The notes beneath the pieces are model-generated. The model was not told where the DNA came from. It did not search any database and saw nothing but the letters and a program-made list of their open reading frames with translations. From the NCBI GenBank assembly GCA_036496425.1, contig DASXLG010000015.1:1-39185 (forward strand): a stretch of DNA of 39,185 nucleotides, given 5' to 3'. This stretch comes from Terriglobia bacterium (GTDB lineage: Bacteria; Acidobacteriota; Terriglobia; 20CM-2-55-15). Positions 10,740 to 18,474 of this stretch are shown in pieces (position 1 is the first letter of the stretch; every line of letters starts with the position of its first letter). A program made the position numbers and the translations under genes.

Positions 10740-10796
10740 TGGTCCCAGTATAGCGAACCTTGGCATTTGCGCGGTGACGTGCGCAGAAATCCGGGA

Positions 10797-10841
10797 CGAG
10801 GCTGGACTCCAGAACAACATCAACTTCGCGTGACAAAAAAA
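10797..10841. repeat. 45-bp direct repeat, copy 1
   Basis: It begins CGAGGCTGGACTCCAGAACA and ends with a run of seven A. It is identical to positions 11750-11794. It contains the small palindrome CTGGACTCCAG. It lies about 60 bp upstream of the mntA start, so it may belong to the promoter region of the toxin-antitoxin pair. Confidence 0.9.
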
Positions 10842-11568: not shown

Positions 11569-11606
11569 GGGGTAGTGTCCTAATTCCCAAATTAGGACAC
11601 TACCCC
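11569..11606. repeat. perfect 17-bp hairpin flanked by 11-bp direct repeats
   Basis: Arm 11569-11585 (GGGGTAGTGTCCTAATT) is exactly complementary to 11590-11606, with a 4-nt loop. The sequence CCCTGGTGGGG occurs at 11562-11572 and again at 11603-11613, bracketing the hairpin. It may be a mobile-element end or MITE-like remnant. It sits just after the TIGR03435 remnant. There is no U tract, so it is not a standard terminator. Confidence 0.7.
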
Positions 11607-11749
11607 TGGTGGGGACACTTTGGGAGTTTCAATCACTTACCGTAAGCGCCTGACCCAGCAGAGCGTCTGCAATTGATATAGAGTCTTTCATCGCTTGCGG
11701 CTCTTCACGTTCATTATCTTTTTAGTACCGTGGTTGAAACACTCCGGGG

Positions 11750-11794
11750 CGAGGCTGGACTCCAGAACAACATCAACTTCGCGTGACAAAAAAA
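11750..11794. repeat. 45-bp direct repeat, copy 2
   Basis: Identical to 10797-10841, in the same orientation. It is followed directly by the poly-A run and terminator hairpin of the fibronectin-III gene. Read on the minus strand, both copies continue in an open frame (SREVDVVLESSL, then diverging), so the repeats may be shared ends of duplicated segments rather than a free-standing element. Confidence 0.9.
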
Positions 11795-11839: not shown

Positions 11840-12481
11840 CTAGATCACCATACGCTGGACCGGCGAGCTCCAGTCGGTGAAACCCGGCTTGCCGAAGGCA
11901 CGGACGTGGAACATATACGTCGTGCCCGGGGTCAGGTTTTCGACCGCTACCGGCTCTCGCGCGGAAGCGACCGTGATCTTCGTCCACACCGGCGCTGTCC
12001 CGTTCGTGCTTACCGGCGCGTACTCGACTTCATAGATACGCGCATTCGGCACAAACGAGATCGTCGCCAGCAGCTCGCCCCCCTTGCCCTGATTGAGGTT
12101 TTCAATCACGGCTTGGATCAGCGACGCATGCGGAACGCGGTTCGTCGATCGGATCTCGAACCCGCTGGATGTAAACGTAACGGGATCGTCATTCGAAGCG
12201 GCTTCCACGTAATGGCCCAGTTGCTCGGCCATTTTCACCAGCACTTCGCGCTGTTTGTTCTTGATCGCTTTCGCCTGTTTGGAACCATCAAGCGTAGCGA
12301 CCACATCAGCCGCGAAGGTGGTGATGGCCGCAAGGAACGCGGCCAGATCCACCGGCGAGTTCGGAAACGCCGTATTGCCGAGCATCTTGTCGTGTATCGA
12401 CGTCAGACGCGATACAAAACTGTCGTCCGGCAAACGCAGAAAATCGAACAACGCCTTCAACTTCTTCATTATTGTTGCCAT
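11840..12481 (-). CDS. fibronectin type III domain protein with helical N-terminal region
   Basis: A 213-residue protein. Residues about 1-125 are predicted helical (KKLKALFDFLRLPDD, then an Ala-rich stretch, then KNKQREVLVKMAEQLGHYVEAA). Residues about 128-212 form one FN3 module, shown by strands ISFVPNARIYEVEYAPV, the motif ENLTPGTTYMFHVRAFG and terminal WSSPVQRMVI. There is no signal peptide or transmembrane segment, unusual for FN3 proteins, which are mostly extracellular. An almost ideal Shine-Dalgarno (AAAGGAGGTGA) lies 6 nt before the ATG and a strong terminator follows, so it is probably a well-expressed single-gene unit. Its function is not recognised. It may be exported by a non-Sec route or act inside the cell. 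Confidence 0.75.
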   Translation of the reverse strand: MATIMKKLKALFDFLRLPDDSFVSRLTSIHDKMLGNTAFPNSPVDLAAFLAAITTFAADVVATLDGSKQAKAIKNKQREVLVKMAEQLGHYVEAASNDDPVTFTSSGFEIRSTNRVPHASLIQAVIENLNQGKGGELLATISFVPNARIYEVEYAPVSTNGTAPVWTKITVASAREPVAVENLTPGTTYMFHVRAFGKPGFTDWSSPVQRMVI

Positions 12482-13000
12482 AGCTCTTCACCTCCTTTCC
12501 TGGCGAATTTATTTGCGATTGCACCAGTCATCAGAAATCTAGACCGATACAATTTCAAATGTCTTACTGAGGCGCTTATTTCCCCCTCATTAGGTACAAC
12601 GGTTCGGACCCCCCTGTTTGTCACAGCACCTCAAAATATTTCTTCCTGCTTCAATTTCCGCCCTCACTCGTATAACTCCGGAAACCATCGGAACCTGACA
12701 CGCTACCGAAAAACTTTTTGGATTTTCTCGTGTTGATGGACGGCAACATAGCCACTCCTGAAAAATTGACAATCAAATTACCCATCAAGCCGGTGAACCG
12801 CCGTGCCACGCATGACAAATGTCGGCATCGGACATCGCTCGCTGTTCTCTAGCGATTCGATCTTCGGGAACTTTCATTTTCTGGCGCCTGGGTTGTGATT
12901 TGGAACCCGGTTTCGGGCGCCATACTTATATACAACGATGGGACCCTCAAAAAGCTCTCATCGATACTGCACGATCTCCGGGCAGGAAGTCGAAATGGGA
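12482..13000. other. non-coding stretch without recognised gene
   Basis: About 520 bp between the FN3 gene start and the first REP-like repeat. It is more AT-rich than its surroundings and short open frames show no family similarity. It must hold the promoter of the FN3 gene on the minus strand. An imperfect inverted repeat spans 12882-12922 (TGGCGCC-tGGGTT against AACCC and GGCGCCA). Nothing else is supported. Confidence 0.5.
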
Positions 13001-13021
13001 GGGGGCGCACACCTGAATTCC
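13001..13021 (+). repeat. REP-like repeat, copy 1
   Basis: The copy begins GGGGGCGCACACCTGAATTC and is a perfect 21-bp inverted match to 13819-13839. It is preceded by GGAG, a tetranucleotide of the kind found next to REP hairpins. It is followed by an imperfect palindrome TGAATTC-CG-GATTTCA (13014-13029). Confidence 0.85.
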
Positions 13022-13135
13022 GGATTTCAGCGATTAGGAATTCATTTTGTTTCGCGATGTCTCGCGACTATTCTGATTATCGCCCTGCCTTCTGACGGAG
13101 ACGCCCACCGCCAGAGAAGCCAATTCACAATACAA

Positions 13136-13813
13136 ATGCCACATCGCAAAAGAGTTGTCGTATCCGGCATTCCCGTGCATATCATGCAACGCGGAGTCCG
13201 GCGATCGAACATTTTTCGGGATAAGGAAGACCGGTGCATCTATTTACGGCTGTTCGCGGAAGCCTCGCGCCGCTTTGACCTGCGTATTTACGCCTACTGT
13301 CTGATGACAAACCATACGCACTTTGTTGCCGTACCGAACCGGCTGGATTCGATCTGGCGAACATTTCATCGGGTCCACTCGATCTATGGATCCATCTTCA
13401 ATGCGAAATACGGGTTGTACGGGCGCCTCTGGGAGGAAAGGCCACGTTCAACTCCAACAGATGAGACTCACTTCCTGGCGGCAGTCCGATACGTGGAACT
13501 GAATCCGGTGCGAGCCGGCATGATTCAGCGTGCGGAAGAATACCCTTGGTCCAGCGCCCGCTTCCACTGCGGTCTCGTTGCCACCGACCTGCTGCTCGAC
13601 GCTACCTGGCCGGATGCTGGAACTTTTGGACGTTGGTCGGAATGGCTCACCGGTGATTGTGATCCTGCAATGGAAGATCTTCTGCGCCAACATACCTTAT
13701 CAGGGCAACCATGTGGCGACCCCGCGTTCATCAGACAATTGGAGGAACGGACCGGTCAGACGATTCGGCCCCGAAAGCCGGGGCGGAGGCCACGGAATCT
13801 CGCGCCATTTTGA
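13136..13813 (+). CDS. REP-associated tyrosine transposase (RAYT, Y1/HUH superfamily)
   Basis: A 225-residue single-strand DNA transposase of the TnpA_REP type. The metal-binding HUH-type motif is NHTHF (His60, His62). The catalytic tyrosine is predicted in AAVRYVELNPVRAG (Tyr119), whose NPVRAG tail is characteristic of the family. The N-terminal start RKRVVVSGIPVHIMQRG is also typical. Perfect inverted REP-like repeats flank the gene (13001-13021 and 13819-13839), the usual RAYT arrangement. The ATG at 13136 fits the family N-terminus; an upstream in-frame extension does not. The reading frame is intact, so it may be active. RAYTs are usually single-copy, domesticated relatives of IS200/IS605 transposases that spread REP sequences. 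Confidence 0.92.
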   Translation: MPHRKRVVVSGIPVHIMQRGVRRSNIFRDKEDRCIYLRLFAEASRRFDLRIYAYCLMTNHTHFVAVPNRLDSIWRTFHRVHSIYGSIFNAKYGLYGRLWEERPRSTPTDETHFLAAVRYVELNPVRAGMIQRAEEYPWSSARFHCGLVATDLLLDATWPDAGTFGRWSEWLTGDCDPAMEDLLRQHTLSGQPCGDPAFIRQLEERTGQTIRPRKPGRRPRNLAPF

Positions 13814-13818
13814 ATTCG

Positions 13819-13839
13819 GGAATTCAGGTGTGCGCCCCC
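13819..13839 (-). repeat. REP-like repeat, copy 2
   Basis: Exact reverse complement of copy 1 at 13001-13021. It overlaps a perfect palindrome TGAATTC-GG-GAATTCA (13811-13826), giving a hairpin. It lies 5 bp after the RAYT stop codon. Confidence 0.9.
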
Positions 13840-13953
13840 TAGCCACCAGTTTAGGGTAACGGTAAGATCAAGTAAATCAAAGCTAAACTGAACCACCGAG
13901 AAGGGTGCGGTGTCATTTGTAGGTATCGAGATATCTTCTCGCCAGGAGGATAC

Positions 13954-15639
13954 ATGCGAGCACTCTGGAAGTCGTCGGTTGTCGCATTCAATTCGCCATC
14001 TGGTACCTATCAAGACGTTTGGACTACCACCGCTTGGTTCAAACGCCTGGCCTATGCCACTTGGATGTTGGTTATCGTCGTGTCAACACGTCAGATCGGC
14101 ACTGCCGCTGAAACACGCAGCCTGATCGAACCACAGTCTGCATCTGCGCCGATTCGGACAAACTTTGAAGCAGTAGATGTCCACGTCAGTTCGCCTGAGG
14201 AAACGCGTCGAGTTTTGCACGCGGACGCAGCTGCGTTTAGTGCCGGTCGGTACGAAATCCGCAATGCGACCATGTTGGATCTGATCACGACGGCATATAG
14301 CGTAGAGGAGGCGGCTGTCTTCGGCGGACCGAGTTGGCTGGCTTTGGATCGCTTTGACGTGATCGCTAACCCCCCCGCAAAGACCACGATCGCAGCAGCC
14401 AATGTAATGCTTCAGTCCGTACTTGCAGATCGGTTCAAACTCGCTGTTCGCAAGGACACGAAACCTTTGCCAGCCTGGGTGCTGTCAGCAGGAGCGGGTA
14501 AACCTAAGTTGAAGCCCGCCGATAACGCAGCCGAATCCGCTTGCCGGGTCGTGGACGGTAACCAGCGTCTGACATGTACCAACGTGACTATGGATGCATT
14601 CGCCACGTGGCTACGTTCGGGACGAGTGACAACACTGCCGGTCGTGAATTCTACGATGATTGAGGGCTCTTGGGATTTCGACCTGCACTATACCGTGGCA
14701 GGAGGCATGTTCGGTGTCTCGGAAAACAATCCGATTATTGACGCGCTCGAAAAAGAAGGCGGCCTGAAGCTTGAGGTTCAGACTGTTCCTCAGGCGGTAC
14801 TCATTGTTGAGGGGGTCAACAGAAACCCGACGGCCAATGCCCCTGACTTAGAGAAAAGTCTGTCCCAGGTGCCTAAGGAGTTCGAGGCGGCATCAATCAA
14901 GCCATGCAAGGCATTTGAACCTGGCCAACCGGCTCGTGGGCAGGTGAATATGGGATGCTCGCCACTGAGCAATTTTGTGACGCTCGCATGGAACCTATTC
15001 ACCCAGGTTCAGCTGGCGCCGAACATGTTCATAAAGTTGGGGGACGCCGATATTGCAGGTGCACCGAAGTGGATGAATTCGAGATTCTTCAATATTGTCG
15101 CGAAAGCTCCGCCTGGGGTTGACTTCCTGACTCCAAACGGCGCCGAAGCGTCCGCCGATTTTCGCGCAATGCTGCGCAACCTCCTGGTGGATCGTTTCAA
15201 GATGGTTACACACTACGAAGACCGACTTGTGGATGTGTATACATTGGCGGCGGCGAAGCCCAAGCTGAAAAAAGCCGACCCGTCGAGTCGAACAGGCTGT
15301 AGATCGAACGGCATAACTCCTGGAGTTCCCACGGTTGTTAAATGCCAGAACGTAACCATGGCCCAGTTTGCGGAGGAGCTCAATCACCAACAGCCCATCG
15401 TGGCGAGTCGCCGCCGCGTCGTGGATTCCACTTCCATTGAGGGAAGCTGGGACCTCACACTCTCTTATCGCATTATGCCGCCCAGGAATGCTGCTCCCGG
15501 AGAAGCAGCAGATCCAGCGGGAGGTGTGTCCCTCTTTGACGCCATTGAACAGCAGTTGGGGCTGAAACTGGAAGGAGCCAAGCGAAGCATGCCCGTTTTT
15601 GTGATCGACAAGATTGAGGAGACGCCGACCGAAAATTGA
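13954..15639 (+). CDS. Soli_TIGR03435 family protein with two tandem domains
   Basis: A 561-residue exported protein preceded by AGGAGG 6 nt before the ATG. A hydrophobic N-terminal segment (about 28-50) may act as a signal anchor. Domain 1 (about 68-285) has FEAVDVHVSSPEETRR, LQSVLADRFKLAVRKDTK, an 'NVTMDAFATWL' stretch, VVNSTMIEGSWDFDLHY and GLKLE. Domain 2 (about 305-555) repeats the pattern: FEAASIKPC, LRNLLVDRFKMVTHYEDR, NVTMAQFAEEL, VVDSTSIEGSWDLTLSY and GLKLEGAKRSMPVFVIDKIE. The family is abundant in Solibacter-like acidobacteria, is usually single-domain, and has no established function. The gene lies between REP-like copies 2 and 3, so it may have been moved or duplicated with them. 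Confidence 0.88.
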   Translation: MRALWKSSVVAFNSPSGTYQDVWTTTAWFKRLAYATWMLVIVVSTRQIGTAAETRSLIEPQSASAPIRTNFEAVDVHVSSPEETRRVLHADAAAFSAGRYEIRNATMLDLITTAYSVEEAAVFGGPSWLALDRFDVIANPPAKTTIAAANVMLQSVLADRFKLAVRKDTKPLPAWVLSAGAGKPKLKPADNAAESACRVVDGNQRLTCTNVTMDAFATWLRSGRVTTLPVVNSTMIEGSWDFDLHYTVAGGMFGVSENNPIIDALEKEGGLKLEVQTVPQAVLIVEGVNRNPTANAPDLEKSLSQVPKEFEAASIKPCKAFEPGQPARGQVNMGCSPLSNFVTLAWNLFTQVQLAPNMFIKLGDADIAGAPKWMNSRFFNIVAKAPPGVDFLTPNGAEASADFRAMLRNLLVDRFKMVTHYEDRLVDVYTLAAAKPKLKKADPSSRTGCRSNGITPGVPTVVKCQNVTMAQFAEELNHQQPIVASRRRVVDSTSIEGSWDLTLSYRIMPPRNAAPGEAADPAGGVSLFDAIEQQLGLKLEGAKRSMPVFVIDKIEETPTEN

Positions 15640-15662
15640 GCGTGGACCGACCCAGACCCTCG

Positions 15663-15683
15663 GGAATTCAGGTGTGCGCCCCC
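15663..15683 (-). repeat. REP-like repeat, copy 3
   Basis: Identical to copy 2 (same orientation) over 21 bp. On the reverse strand it is again preceded by GGAG. It lacks the second palindromic arm seen at copy 2. It lies 23 bp after the TIGR03435 stop and directly before the 41-bp tandem array. Confidence 0.88.
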
Positions 15684-15699
15684 TCCTTTCATTTCCTGG

Positions 15700-16063
15700 C
15701 CACCAAATGGATTTTCGCGGCGCGAACATCCGTTTCATCTCCACCAAATGGATTTTCGCGGCACGAACATCCGTTTCGTCGCCACCAAACGGATTTTCAC
15801 GGCGCGAACATCCGTTTCATCTCCACCAAACGGATTTTCACGGCACGAACATCCGTTTCATCTCCGCCAAACGGATTTTCGCGGCGCGAACATCCGTTTC
15901 GTCGCCACCAAACGGATTTTCATGGCGCGAACATCCGTTTCGTCGCCACCAAACGGATTTTCACGGCGCGAACATCCGTTTCGTCGCCACCAAACGGATT
16001 TTCGCGGCGCGAACATCCGTTTCATCTCCACCAAACGGATTTTCACAGCGCGGACATCCGTTT
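15700..16063. repeat. tandem array of nine 41-bp units, each with a nested palindrome
   Basis: Units start at 15709, 15750, 15791, 15832, 15873, 15914, 15955, 15996 and 16037 (the last is 27 nt long), preceded by a 9-nt partial unit. Each unit pairs AAACGGAT with ATCCGTTT around an inner TTCGCG-G-CGCGAA palindrome, giving a 31-nt near-perfect inverted repeat joined by a 10-nt linker. The linker has two forms, CATCTCCACC and CGTCGCCACC, in order A B A A(variant) B B B A. There are no unique spacers, so it is not CRISPR. Forward frames are open only because the period is 41. Confidence 0.95.
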
Positions 16064-16187
16064 GGCGCTGACCTCCGGCGCTACTCCATTGATATGAAGG
16101 ATTTTACGATCTTCGGCGGGTGATGTATTTCTGATTTCTGCGACATTATTATATGCATTCGTTAGATAAACTGTGTAAGGTCCACCT

Positions 16188-16979
16188 ATGAATCTCCTAT
16201 TTTGGATTGCCGCCTTGCTGATCATGCAGCAGAGCCCTGCGTCGCAGGCGCCTCCCAAGACGGTGACGCCGCAATCGTATCCGCGTGAAGCCGTGCTGAC
16301 CGGCCAGGCACGGTTTGTGGAGGGATGTTCGTTCTGTCACGGCCAGGACGCGGCTGGAAGCGATACCGGCCCGGATCTGACGCGCTCCATTCTCGTTGCC
16401 CAGGATCTGAAGGGCGACAAAATCATCCCGGTCGTCCGCCAGGGTCGCGTGGATAAGGGCATGCCGGCATTCGATTTGTCCGACGCGGATCTGAATGCGA
16501 TCGTCGCCTATATTCATGACCAGAAAACCAAGGCGGAATCCGAGGGTGGAGGACGCCGTTCCGTCGATGTCACCGATATCGCAACAGGAAATGCCGAAGC
16601 AGGTGCGCGCTATTTCAACGGCGCAGGAAAGTGTTCAACCTGCCATTCGCCCACCGGCGATCTTGCCGGCATCGGAGCCCGGTACCGCGGACTTCCGTTG
16701 CTCCAGCGCATGCTTTATCCCCAAGGTTCAAGGCCCGCTCCGGCTCCGGCAAAGGTGACGGTGACGCTCGCTTCGGGGGAAGTCGTCACAGGCACACTGG
16801 CTTCCCGCGATGAATTTACGCTTTCAATAAAGGATGCATCGGGAGCCGCGCGTTCGTGGCCCGTGGGTGACGTGAAATTCAGCATCGATGATCCGCTGGC
16901 CGCCCATTTCGATCAACTCGGCAAATATTCCGACGAGGACATGCACAACGTTTATGCGTATCTTCAAACTCTGCGCTAG
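16188..16979 (+). CDS. secreted dihaem cytochrome c
   Basis: A 263-residue exported electron carrier. Residues 1-20 form a signal peptide. The first cytochrome domain has CSFCH (47-51) and a downstream GMPAF methionine (Met92). The second has CSTCH (149-153) in a shorter domain. After it comes a roughly 70-residue beta-rich module (VTLASGEVVTGTLASRDEF, then LSIKDASGAARSWPV) often fused to such cytochromes. The ATG is preceded by AAGGT. Its 3' end overlaps the quinoprotein start by 26 nt, so it very likely accepts electrons from that enzyme. It begins about 125 bp after the tandem array, which may therefore lie in its upstream region. Confidence 0.92.
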   Translation: MNLLFWIAALLIMQQSPASQAPPKTVTPQSYPREAVLTGQARFVEGCSFCHGQDAAGSDTGPDLTRSILVAQDLKGDKIIPVVRQGRVDKGMPAFDLSDADLNAIVAYIHDQKTKAESEGGGRRSVDVTDIATGNAEAGARYFNGAGKCSTCHSPTGDLAGIGARYRGLPLLQRMLYPQGSRPAPAPAKVTVTLASGEVVTGTLASRDEFTLSIKDASGAARSWPVGDVKFSIDDPLAAHFDQLGKYSDEDMHNVYAYLQTLR

Positions 16980-18474
16980 CGCCGTTGCGCTTTCGTGCCT
17001 TTGTATCGGCTTGCTCGCACAGGGGCCGCCAACTGACAGCTGGCCGACCTACCACGGAGACTACACGGGCAGGCGCCATAGCGCGCTGAGCGGAATCACT
17101 CCGGAAAATGTCGGCGGACTCACAAAGGTGTGGACGTTTCAGACCGGCCAGAATCAGCAGATTAAGGCAACGCCGATACTGGTCCATGGCGTGATCTACA
17201 TCAGCCTACCGGACAACCTGTGGGCCGTCGACGCGCACAACGGGAAACAGCTCTGGCACTACACGGCGCCCGAGAATAACGCGTTCCATATCGGCCACCG
17301 CGGCGTGGCTATATATAAGGACACCGTCTACCTTACAACTCCGGATGCGCACCTGATTGCTCTGAACACCGCCGACGGCAAAGTCCGCTGGAATGTCGTC
17401 ATTGCGGATTCAAAGCGGGGTTACTGGTCGACGAATGCGCCGTTGATCGTCGGGAATCATGTGATGGTCGGGGTGTCCGGCGACTTCGACAATGTCCCCG
17501 GCCAGCTGAAATCCATCGACGCGGATACCGGCAAGACGCAGTGGATTTTCTACAGCACGCCGCCCCCGGGTCTGTCCGATCCTCCAAGCGGTGGAGCGAC
17601 CGGCGGACAGATGTGGATGACGGGAACATACGATCCCGAATTGAACCTCGTATTTGTCGGCACGGGAAACCCGACACCTGTCCTGAACGGAACTGTCCGG
17701 CCGGGCGATAATCCGTGGACCTGCAGCATCGTCGCGATCCATCCGGATACCGGCAAGCTCGCGTGGGGATTTCAGGCTTCGCCCCACGATACGCATGACT
17801 GGGATGCCGCCGAAGTCCCCGTGCTCGTCGACGGCGATTTCAATGGCGCGCCTCGAAAAATGCTGATGCAGGCCTCCCGCAATGGCTATTTCTTCGTTCT
17901 CGATCGGACCACTGGGAAAAACCTGGTCACAGCCCCATTCGCGGCGGTGAACTGGGCGAAAGGCATCGACAAAGACGGACGACCGATTCCCGATCCGGAG
18001 AAGGAACCCGCCCGCGACGGCCGACTGGTGGCTCCGAATGAGAACGGCGCGACAAACTATCGTTCGCCGAGCTTCGATCCACAGAGCGGCCTGTTCCTGG
18101 TGAGCGCTCAAGACAGCTATGGCATCTATTTCTTCAAGCCGGAGCACGGCGAATACGGCTGGGCCGGAGCGGACTACAACCTGGCGGGAAAGGCATTTCT
18201 GCGGGCCATCGACTATCAAACTGGCAAGATACAGTGGAGCCATCCGCTCGGCGACGGTCCCGCCGCGGCTGGTGTTTTGACGACGGATACAGGGATCGCC
18301 TTCACGGGCGATGTGCCGGGAAACGCGATCGCGGTTCGAACCTCTGACGGCACGACGCTCTGGCACGCCTCGATTGGTAGAATGGGAAACGCCCCGATAA
18401 CCTATATGCTCGACGGCAAGCAGATTATGCTCTTTGGAGGCGGCAGTTCGCTGCACGCCTTTGCCCTCCCCTAG
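16954..18474 (+). CDS. PQQ-binding quinoprotein (alcohol/sugar dehydrogenase-like beta-propeller)
   Basis: A 506-residue periplasmic enzyme with a signal peptide (1-23, MRIFKLCASAVALSCLCIGL). Repeated tryptophan-docking blades such as AVDAHNGKQLWHY, AIHPDTGKLAWGF and AIDYQTGKIQWSH show the eight-bladed propeller of PQQ dehydrogenases. GTGNPTP (Asn239) and HDTHDWDAAE (278-287) match the calcium and catalytic-aspartate regions of methanol/ethanol dehydrogenases. The adjacent-cysteine disulfide typical of alcohol dehydrogenases is not seen. The start at 16954 is inside the cytochrome gene; an upstream in-frame ATG has no signal sequence after it. Electrons would go to the adjacent dihaem cytochrome. 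The substrate is unknown. Confidence 0.88.
   Translation: MRIFKLCASAVALSCLCIGLLAQGPPTDSWPTYHGDYTGRRHSALSGITPENVGGLTKVWTFQTGQNQQIKATPILVHGVIYISLPDNLWAVDAHNGKQLWHYTAPENNAFHIGHRGVAIYKDTVYLTTPDAHLIALNTADGKVRWNVVIADSKRGYWSTNAPLIVGNHVMVGVSGDFDNVPGQLKSIDADTGKTQWIFYSTPPPGLSDPPSGGATGGQMWMTGTYDPELNLVFVGTGNPTPVLNGTVRPGDNPWTCSIVAIHPDTGKLAWGFQASPHDTHDWDAAEVPVLVDGDFNGAPRKMLMQASRNGYFFVLDRTTGKNLVTAPFAAVNWAKGIDKDGRPIPDPEKEPARDGRLVAPNENGATNYRSPSFDPQSGLFLVSAQDSYGIYFFKPEHGEYGWAGADYNLAGKAFLRAIDYQTGKIQWSHPLGDGPAAAGVLTTDTGIAFTGDVPGNAIAVRTSDGTTLWHASIGRMGNAPITYMLDGKQIMLFGGGSSLHAFALP

Follow-up and report, generated by a model that had tools for sequence, protein, structure and literature searches.

A 41-bp palindromic array is one of dozens of short, mirror-symmetric intergenic arrays in one genus of soil acidobacteria

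Introduction

Bacterial intergenic repeats are usually defined by conserved sequence, and the clustered upstream activator (enhancer) sites of sigma-54 activators are usually far fewer than the sites in the arrays considered here. One of these arrays, with nine units, lies in the window, as the whole 39,185-nt stretch of DNA analyzed is called below. The nearest known layout is that of F-plasmid parS (sopC-like), with twelve 43-bp repeats and ten 16-bp inverted repeats (PMC6238139); like the window array, it consists of some ten intergenic tandem units near four helical turns in length, with one main inverted repeat per unit. REP/BIME sequences and their REP-associated tyrosine transposases (RAYTs; PMC8266576, PMC2817692, PMC3733652) also resemble these arrays, as intergenic dispersed palindromes with tandem copies, and at the window there is the further similarity that a RAYT gene and REPs are close by.

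No description of such arrays in acidobacteria was found by full-text searches of open-access papers, which is weak evidence of novelty; the Solibacter genome paper includes tandem-repeat searches in its methods, and no such array class appears in the passages retrieved. The window array is one of dozens of short mirror-symmetric intergenic arrays in a single soil acidobacterial genus, a class that is dispersed and diverse in sequence and keeps its dyad symmetry and step.

Results and discussion

The window array and its surroundings

The window contains a single tandem array by TRF (15692-16063; period 41, 9.1 copies, 91% match, score 590). It is intergenic, with a DUF3738/TIGR03435 gene on its left and a cytochrome c gene on its right:

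11840..12481, minus strand: small fibronectin-III (FN3) gene, of an array-associated family expanded in the genus
12938-13813, plus strand: ORF of the RAYT (Y1_Tnp), conserved part about 13137..13813
12980..13029, minus strand: inverted REP copy, an imperfect inverted repeat of about 45 nt with 15656-15699
13812..13840, plus strand: REP copy at the 3' end of the RAYT gene
13954..15639, plus strand: DUF3738/TIGR03435 (Soli_TIGR03435) gene
15656..15697, plus strand: REP copy (TCGGGAATTCAGGTGTGCGCCCCCTCCTTTCATTTCC) abutting the left end of the array
15705..16063, no strand: array of nine 31-nt palindromes (AAAYGGATTTTCRYGGCRCGAACATCCGTTT) in 41-bp steps
16064..16187, plus strand: leader from the array to the cytochrome c gene
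16188..16979, plus strand: cytochrome c (CBB3-type) gene
16888..18474, plus strand: acido-empty-quinoprotein group A gene

An earlier note on this DNA had described nine 41-bp units, each an inverted repeat of 31 nt plus a 10-nt linker, and this is borne out: palindromes start at 15705, 15746 and so on to 16033, one per 41 bp. The linkers are of two near-identical types (CATCTCCACC and CGTCGCCACC), with none of the unique spacers of a CRISPR; they follow the order A B A A B B B A that had been read from the sequence, and two linker positions (A/G and T/G) covary. Each palindrome has 11-14 Watson-Crick pairs of a possible 15, with a constant T.C mismatch at pair 9-23. Palindromy over the whole unit is 30/41, compared with 18.7 in shuffles, and exceeds that of all 500 of 500 shuffled versions. 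The inner arms show five substitution types, four of them CpG to CpA or TpG and one other, as the note had it. GTAG and CTAC are absent from all nine units.

The note's placement of the array between a REP-like repeat and the start of a cytochrome c operon also holds. The downstream genes encode cytochrome c and an acido-empty-quinoprotein of group A, whose named relatives are in acidobacterial MAGs, and the repeat is a genuine dispersed one, adjoining a RAYT gene. The RAYT and DUF3738 genes are enclosed by the imperfect ~45-nt inverted repeat (arms 12980-13029 and 15656-15699), and the segment 12980-15700 resembles the TIR-flanked RAYT elements of PMC3733652. REPs of this family (GGGAATTCAGGTGTGCGCCCCC) have tens of matches in the window's genome, frequently in inverted doublets and at the ends of contigs, and two congeners have them as well. 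Two other repeats lie to the left: 52-nt direct repeats, 98% identical and 953 bp apart (10790-10841 and 11743-11794), bracket a clan AA aspartic protease gene, and a 17-nt perfect inverted repeat with a 4-nt loop (GGGGTAGTGTCCTAATT) is at 11569-11606.

Occurrence of the window unit

By pattern, blastn, and covariance-model searches, the window unit is found at two loci only, both in the window's genome (G000). Two diverged units, one of them complete and the other partial, make up the second (contig C279:17858); they keep the 41-bp register and have 81% identity to the window array over 73 bp. This locus lies upstream of another TIGR03435 gene, and its right flank (CCTMCGGMGCTAYNCCATTGAYATG) is similar to part of the window leader (16071-16106). 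In its full unit, palindrome position 8 has gone from T-A to A-T, changed on both arms.

Exact-pattern scans for the palindrome in genome and viral collections gave nothing, nor did blastn of the array against phages; the one blastn match among plasmids is in a urtB gene and was put down to chance. A covariance model of the unit, run over 299 genomes of the class, gave true matches in the window's genome only, those in other genomes (E = 0.003-1 region) looking like chance or other hairpins. A congener has a cytochrome c ortholog (72% identical) with different upstream genes and no array at the locus; for the gene neighboring the C279 copy, the search for an ortholog gave no good match. The unit sequence is thus nearly private to its genome. 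The note had named random positions and the lack of a palindrome conserved across genomes as marks of a neutral satellite: the palindrome sequence is indeed unconserved, whereas array positions are not random, the arrays lying between genes and with an excess upstream of a single gene family (see below).

A census of arrays

A census of arrays of at least 80 bp with periods of 25-120, in 1.30 Mb of the window's genome (a sample that is not strictly random, because some contigs were picked through search matches), gave 17 arrays, 11 of them with periods of 40-42 bp; an autocorrelation scan, independent of TRF, agrees. Ten of the 11 are significantly palindromic (p ≤ 0.016), with p = 0.074 for the eleventh. 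The other six (periods 30, 45, 45, 45, 48, and 87, all divisible by three) show no palindromy. One of the period-40-42 arrays has just two copies, within an ORF; a coding-potential scan places every array of more than two copies between genes, and the surrounding genes share no orientation. Several arrays run to contig ends (L166 1-382, L173 6817-7198, L333 1-434, and the end of L179), so that their true number and length are probably underestimated in the assembly.

Four arrays (41, 42, 80, and 82 bp) came from 276 kb of one congener and a single 41-bp array from 105 kb of another; by the whole-unit measure palindromy is not significant in three of these five. A third congener also carries arrays of the class. 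The 399 kb sampled from the family's other genera contain no such array. Of the two in-range arrays from other acidobacterial loci (1,253 kb), one is a coding repeat and the other has three units of 42 bp. The latter is a palindromic repeat (GACCCTGAAAGGGTC, L253 17302-17422) in an acidobacterial MAG labeled gp6, and is possibly a relative of the class from outside the genus. Repeats of other kinds were also seen. Several genomes of the genus have a GC-rich one (GGCTTCGCCCT...GGCTCGCGCTTCGCG) whose 36/45-bp copies form short tandems (L225 3484-3580 and 16714-16807; L202 10224-10331; L208 3818-3889), and one genome of the same family has a CRISPR-like repeat (GTCTATCCCCGCACGGGCGGGGGAACCG) with a period of 61 bp (L252 39-193).

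The largest unit family (GGTAAGSCAGAG) is spread over nine contigs of the window's genome, where its steps are always exactly 41 bp, and five congeners lack it; further families recur at two to four loci each. Units are more similar within an array than between loci, as in concerted evolution. Three GGTAAG arrays share no flanking sequence, and thus give no sign of a larger mobile unit. The families sharing the 40-42-bp palindromic plan are either unrelated or very diverged; several have weak mutual similarity, and many or all may possibly have a common ancestor.

A 20-bp step and an orthologous locus

Periods of 20-21, 40, 60, and 80 bp are seen in several arrays: the basic step of the class is about 20-20.5 bp, with one dyad each, usually paired into 40-42-bp units. 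In three congeners (G002, G003, and G004), an 80-bp (4 x 20) array lies between a gene for an FHA-GAF-Sigma54 activator and a small FN3 gene, with flanks 85-92% and arrays 76-87% identical and with differing copy numbers (4.2, 5.0, and 5.5). In the window's genome the same two genes (activator 64% identical) enclose a 40-bp-period array, so that all four species have an array at this position.

These arrays were compared by 20-bp modules (TGC[4]GnnC[9]GCA), indels defeating a rigid 80-bp registration. The pair at positions 4 and 9 is A-T in 9/14 modules of the window's genome, and T-A in 20/22, 12/17, and 9/20 modules of the three congeners. This switch is one compensatory change that has come to fill an entire array, through either selection or palindrome-correcting copying. 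Small FN3 genes are beside FHA-GAF-sigma-54 activator genes at several loci (C304, C248, C288, and C307 in the window's genome; C489 in G004), which suggests a regulated module.

The fibronectin-III family

The small FN3 proteins (about 215 aa) have a helical N-terminal part followed by the FN3 domain; nothing in the structure indicates DNA binding. There are about 50 matches to the family in the window's genome, 25, 8, 7, 3, and 0 in congeners, and fragments in one genome of the class's other genera: the family has expanded within this genus, and the other genera of the class have almost none of it. Among the 11 members that had not been fetched because of an array, five have one (of 20-, 40-, 41-, or 80-bp type) within 700 bp upstream, against 9/816 control ORFs (Fisher p = 3e-7). 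Most arrays are not beside an FN3 gene, including all nine loci of the largest unit family.

A strong sigma-54-like -24/-12 site (scoring at least 17 of 19.5, with a random 95th percentile of 16.5, on a weight matrix) was found at 4 of 13 FN3 genes, two of the four being orthologs. At the conserved locus, the dyad array lies between the divergent sigma-54 activator gene and the sigma-54-like FN3 promoter. The window itself has neither a sigma-54 activator nor a sigma-54-like promoter near its array.

If the RAYT/DUF3738 segment were taken out, the window array would lie some 0.5 kb upstream of the FN3 gene (11840-12481), comparable to other FN3-linked arrays (30-780 bp from the gene), and it may be the upstream array of this gene, split off by that segment. 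The segment would then be an insertion, for which no empty site was found.

Substitutions and indels

The note had remarked that most inner-arm changes would be G-U pairs if the minus strand were transcribed. This holds when copies in the inner arms are counted (8 minus-strand cells against 2 plus-strand ones), but independent changes are about even, and over ten arrays there is no strand bias (28 plus, 22 minus G-U-preserving), so that minus-strand transcription is not supported. CpG decay, the note's main alternative, fits the window array (7/8 transitions) but is weak as a general cause of the class (43/103, with 34.6 expected). Paired columns are less variable than unpaired ones in ten arrays (CMH chi-square 18.3, p = 2e-5), with some bias possible since the pairs were assigned on the same consensus. 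The ratio of substitutions to indels is no higher in arrays (12.3) than in an intergenic control (14.3), and thus gives no sign that phasing is specially protected from indels.

Possible functions

The arrays may be clusters of binding sites for dimeric proteins, spaced by whole helical turns, a reading to which a probability of about 0.45 is given. Each dyad would be the site of one dimer; the step, two helical turns per ~20 bp, would put all dimers on one face of the helix, for cooperative binding; and array sequences would turn over together with their proteins. This reading is favored because dyad and step are conserved and arrays are concentrated before a gene family, and the conserved FN3 locus, with its activator gene on one side of the array and a sigma-54-like promoter on the other, looks like an enhancer array. 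The note's proposal of palindromes in helical phase, as for putative cooperative protein binding, is indirectly supported by the recurrence of dyads and of steps of 40-42 (or 20, 60, 80-82) bp in many arrays of other sequence, and by the compensatory change at one locus. Against the dimeric-site reading, several unit families per genome would require several specificities, indels are not depleted, most arrays are away from FN3 genes, the window lacks the sigma-54 elements, and if the families have one ancestor, their common period may be a legacy of it and not a product of selection.

It is nearly as likely that the arrays are selfish or neutral satellite DNA, with replication hairpins driving both slippage, by which the arrays would grow, and template-switch correction, by which arms would stay complementary. 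Arrays would then spread and be homogenized, with a 20/41-bp step inherited from one ancestral array, and would be intergenic because insertions within genes are lost. This would account for the expansion, the species-specific families, and the compensatory arms without any function, and it agrees with unit families that are specific to lineage and species and in several cases weakly similar, whole arrays changing in concert, copy number varying between species at one locus, undepleted indels, and inconsistent gene orientation. It does less well with an array kept between the same genes in four species, where a flanking protein is as little as 64% identical, with the strong enrichment upstream of one gene family, and with the narrow 40-42-bp range across families that have no detectable similarity.

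Three narrower explanations fare poorly. A transcribed hairpin array, as a structured RNA or processing signal, is improbable: either strand of the window unit folds better than shuffles, but equally well (-14.5 kcal/mol, z about -3.3), the G-U-preserving changes lack strand bias, the window has no Rfam match, and no terminator-like site was found. The array's position 125 bp upstream of the cytochrome c gene could suggest an operator cluster serving that operon alone, which the arrayless congener ortholog with its other upstream genes and the second copy of the unit before an unrelated TIGR03435 gene make hard to credit. It is equally doubtful that the neighboring RAYT made the array as a BIME: it is 2 kb off and a REP abuts the array, but the repeat flanking the RAYT is genome-dispersed and differs from the window unit, the units lack GTAG, and another congener has arrays and almost no such REPs.

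Extended to the chromosome, the dimeric-site reading would make these phased dyad arrays, with their many co-evolving families, a cooperative nucleoprotein platform controlling the FN3 family and other loci. This is less likely than not; if true, it would be a bacterial regulatory satellite that keeps spacing and symmetry while sequence varies.

Comparison with known systems

F-plasmid parS is a single plasmid locus beside parAB, while the window class occupies many chromosomal loci and has several unit families. No parA or parB gene adjoins the window array, whose neighbors are the DUF3738, cytochrome c, quinoprotein, RAYT, and FN3 genes, and because of this and of the many loci it is not filed as parS, though judging by layout it could function like it. 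Unlike REP/BIME sequences, the arrays have no GTAG tag, a fixed step, diverse unit sequences, and very few copies of each (two loci for the window unit, nine for the largest family), and the RAYT here is tied to another repeat: membership fails on tag, cognate transposase, and copy number. Sigma-54 enhancers are matched at the conserved FN3 locus by whole-turn dyads, a divergent activator gene, and a sigma-54-like promoter, a layout absent at the window array and most others. As in minisatellites (VNTRs), repeats are head to tail and vary in copy number between species, but minisatellites do not share a 40-42-bp period and palindromy over unrelated or very diverged sequences, or a link to a gene family.

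What is conserved here is an architecture, of period and symmetry, across several unit families in four species, tied to an expanded gene family. Without a function, the arrays would be a rare bacterial example of satellite-like DNA evolving in concert; with one, they would represent a new way of laying out multi-site regulation or nucleoid organization.
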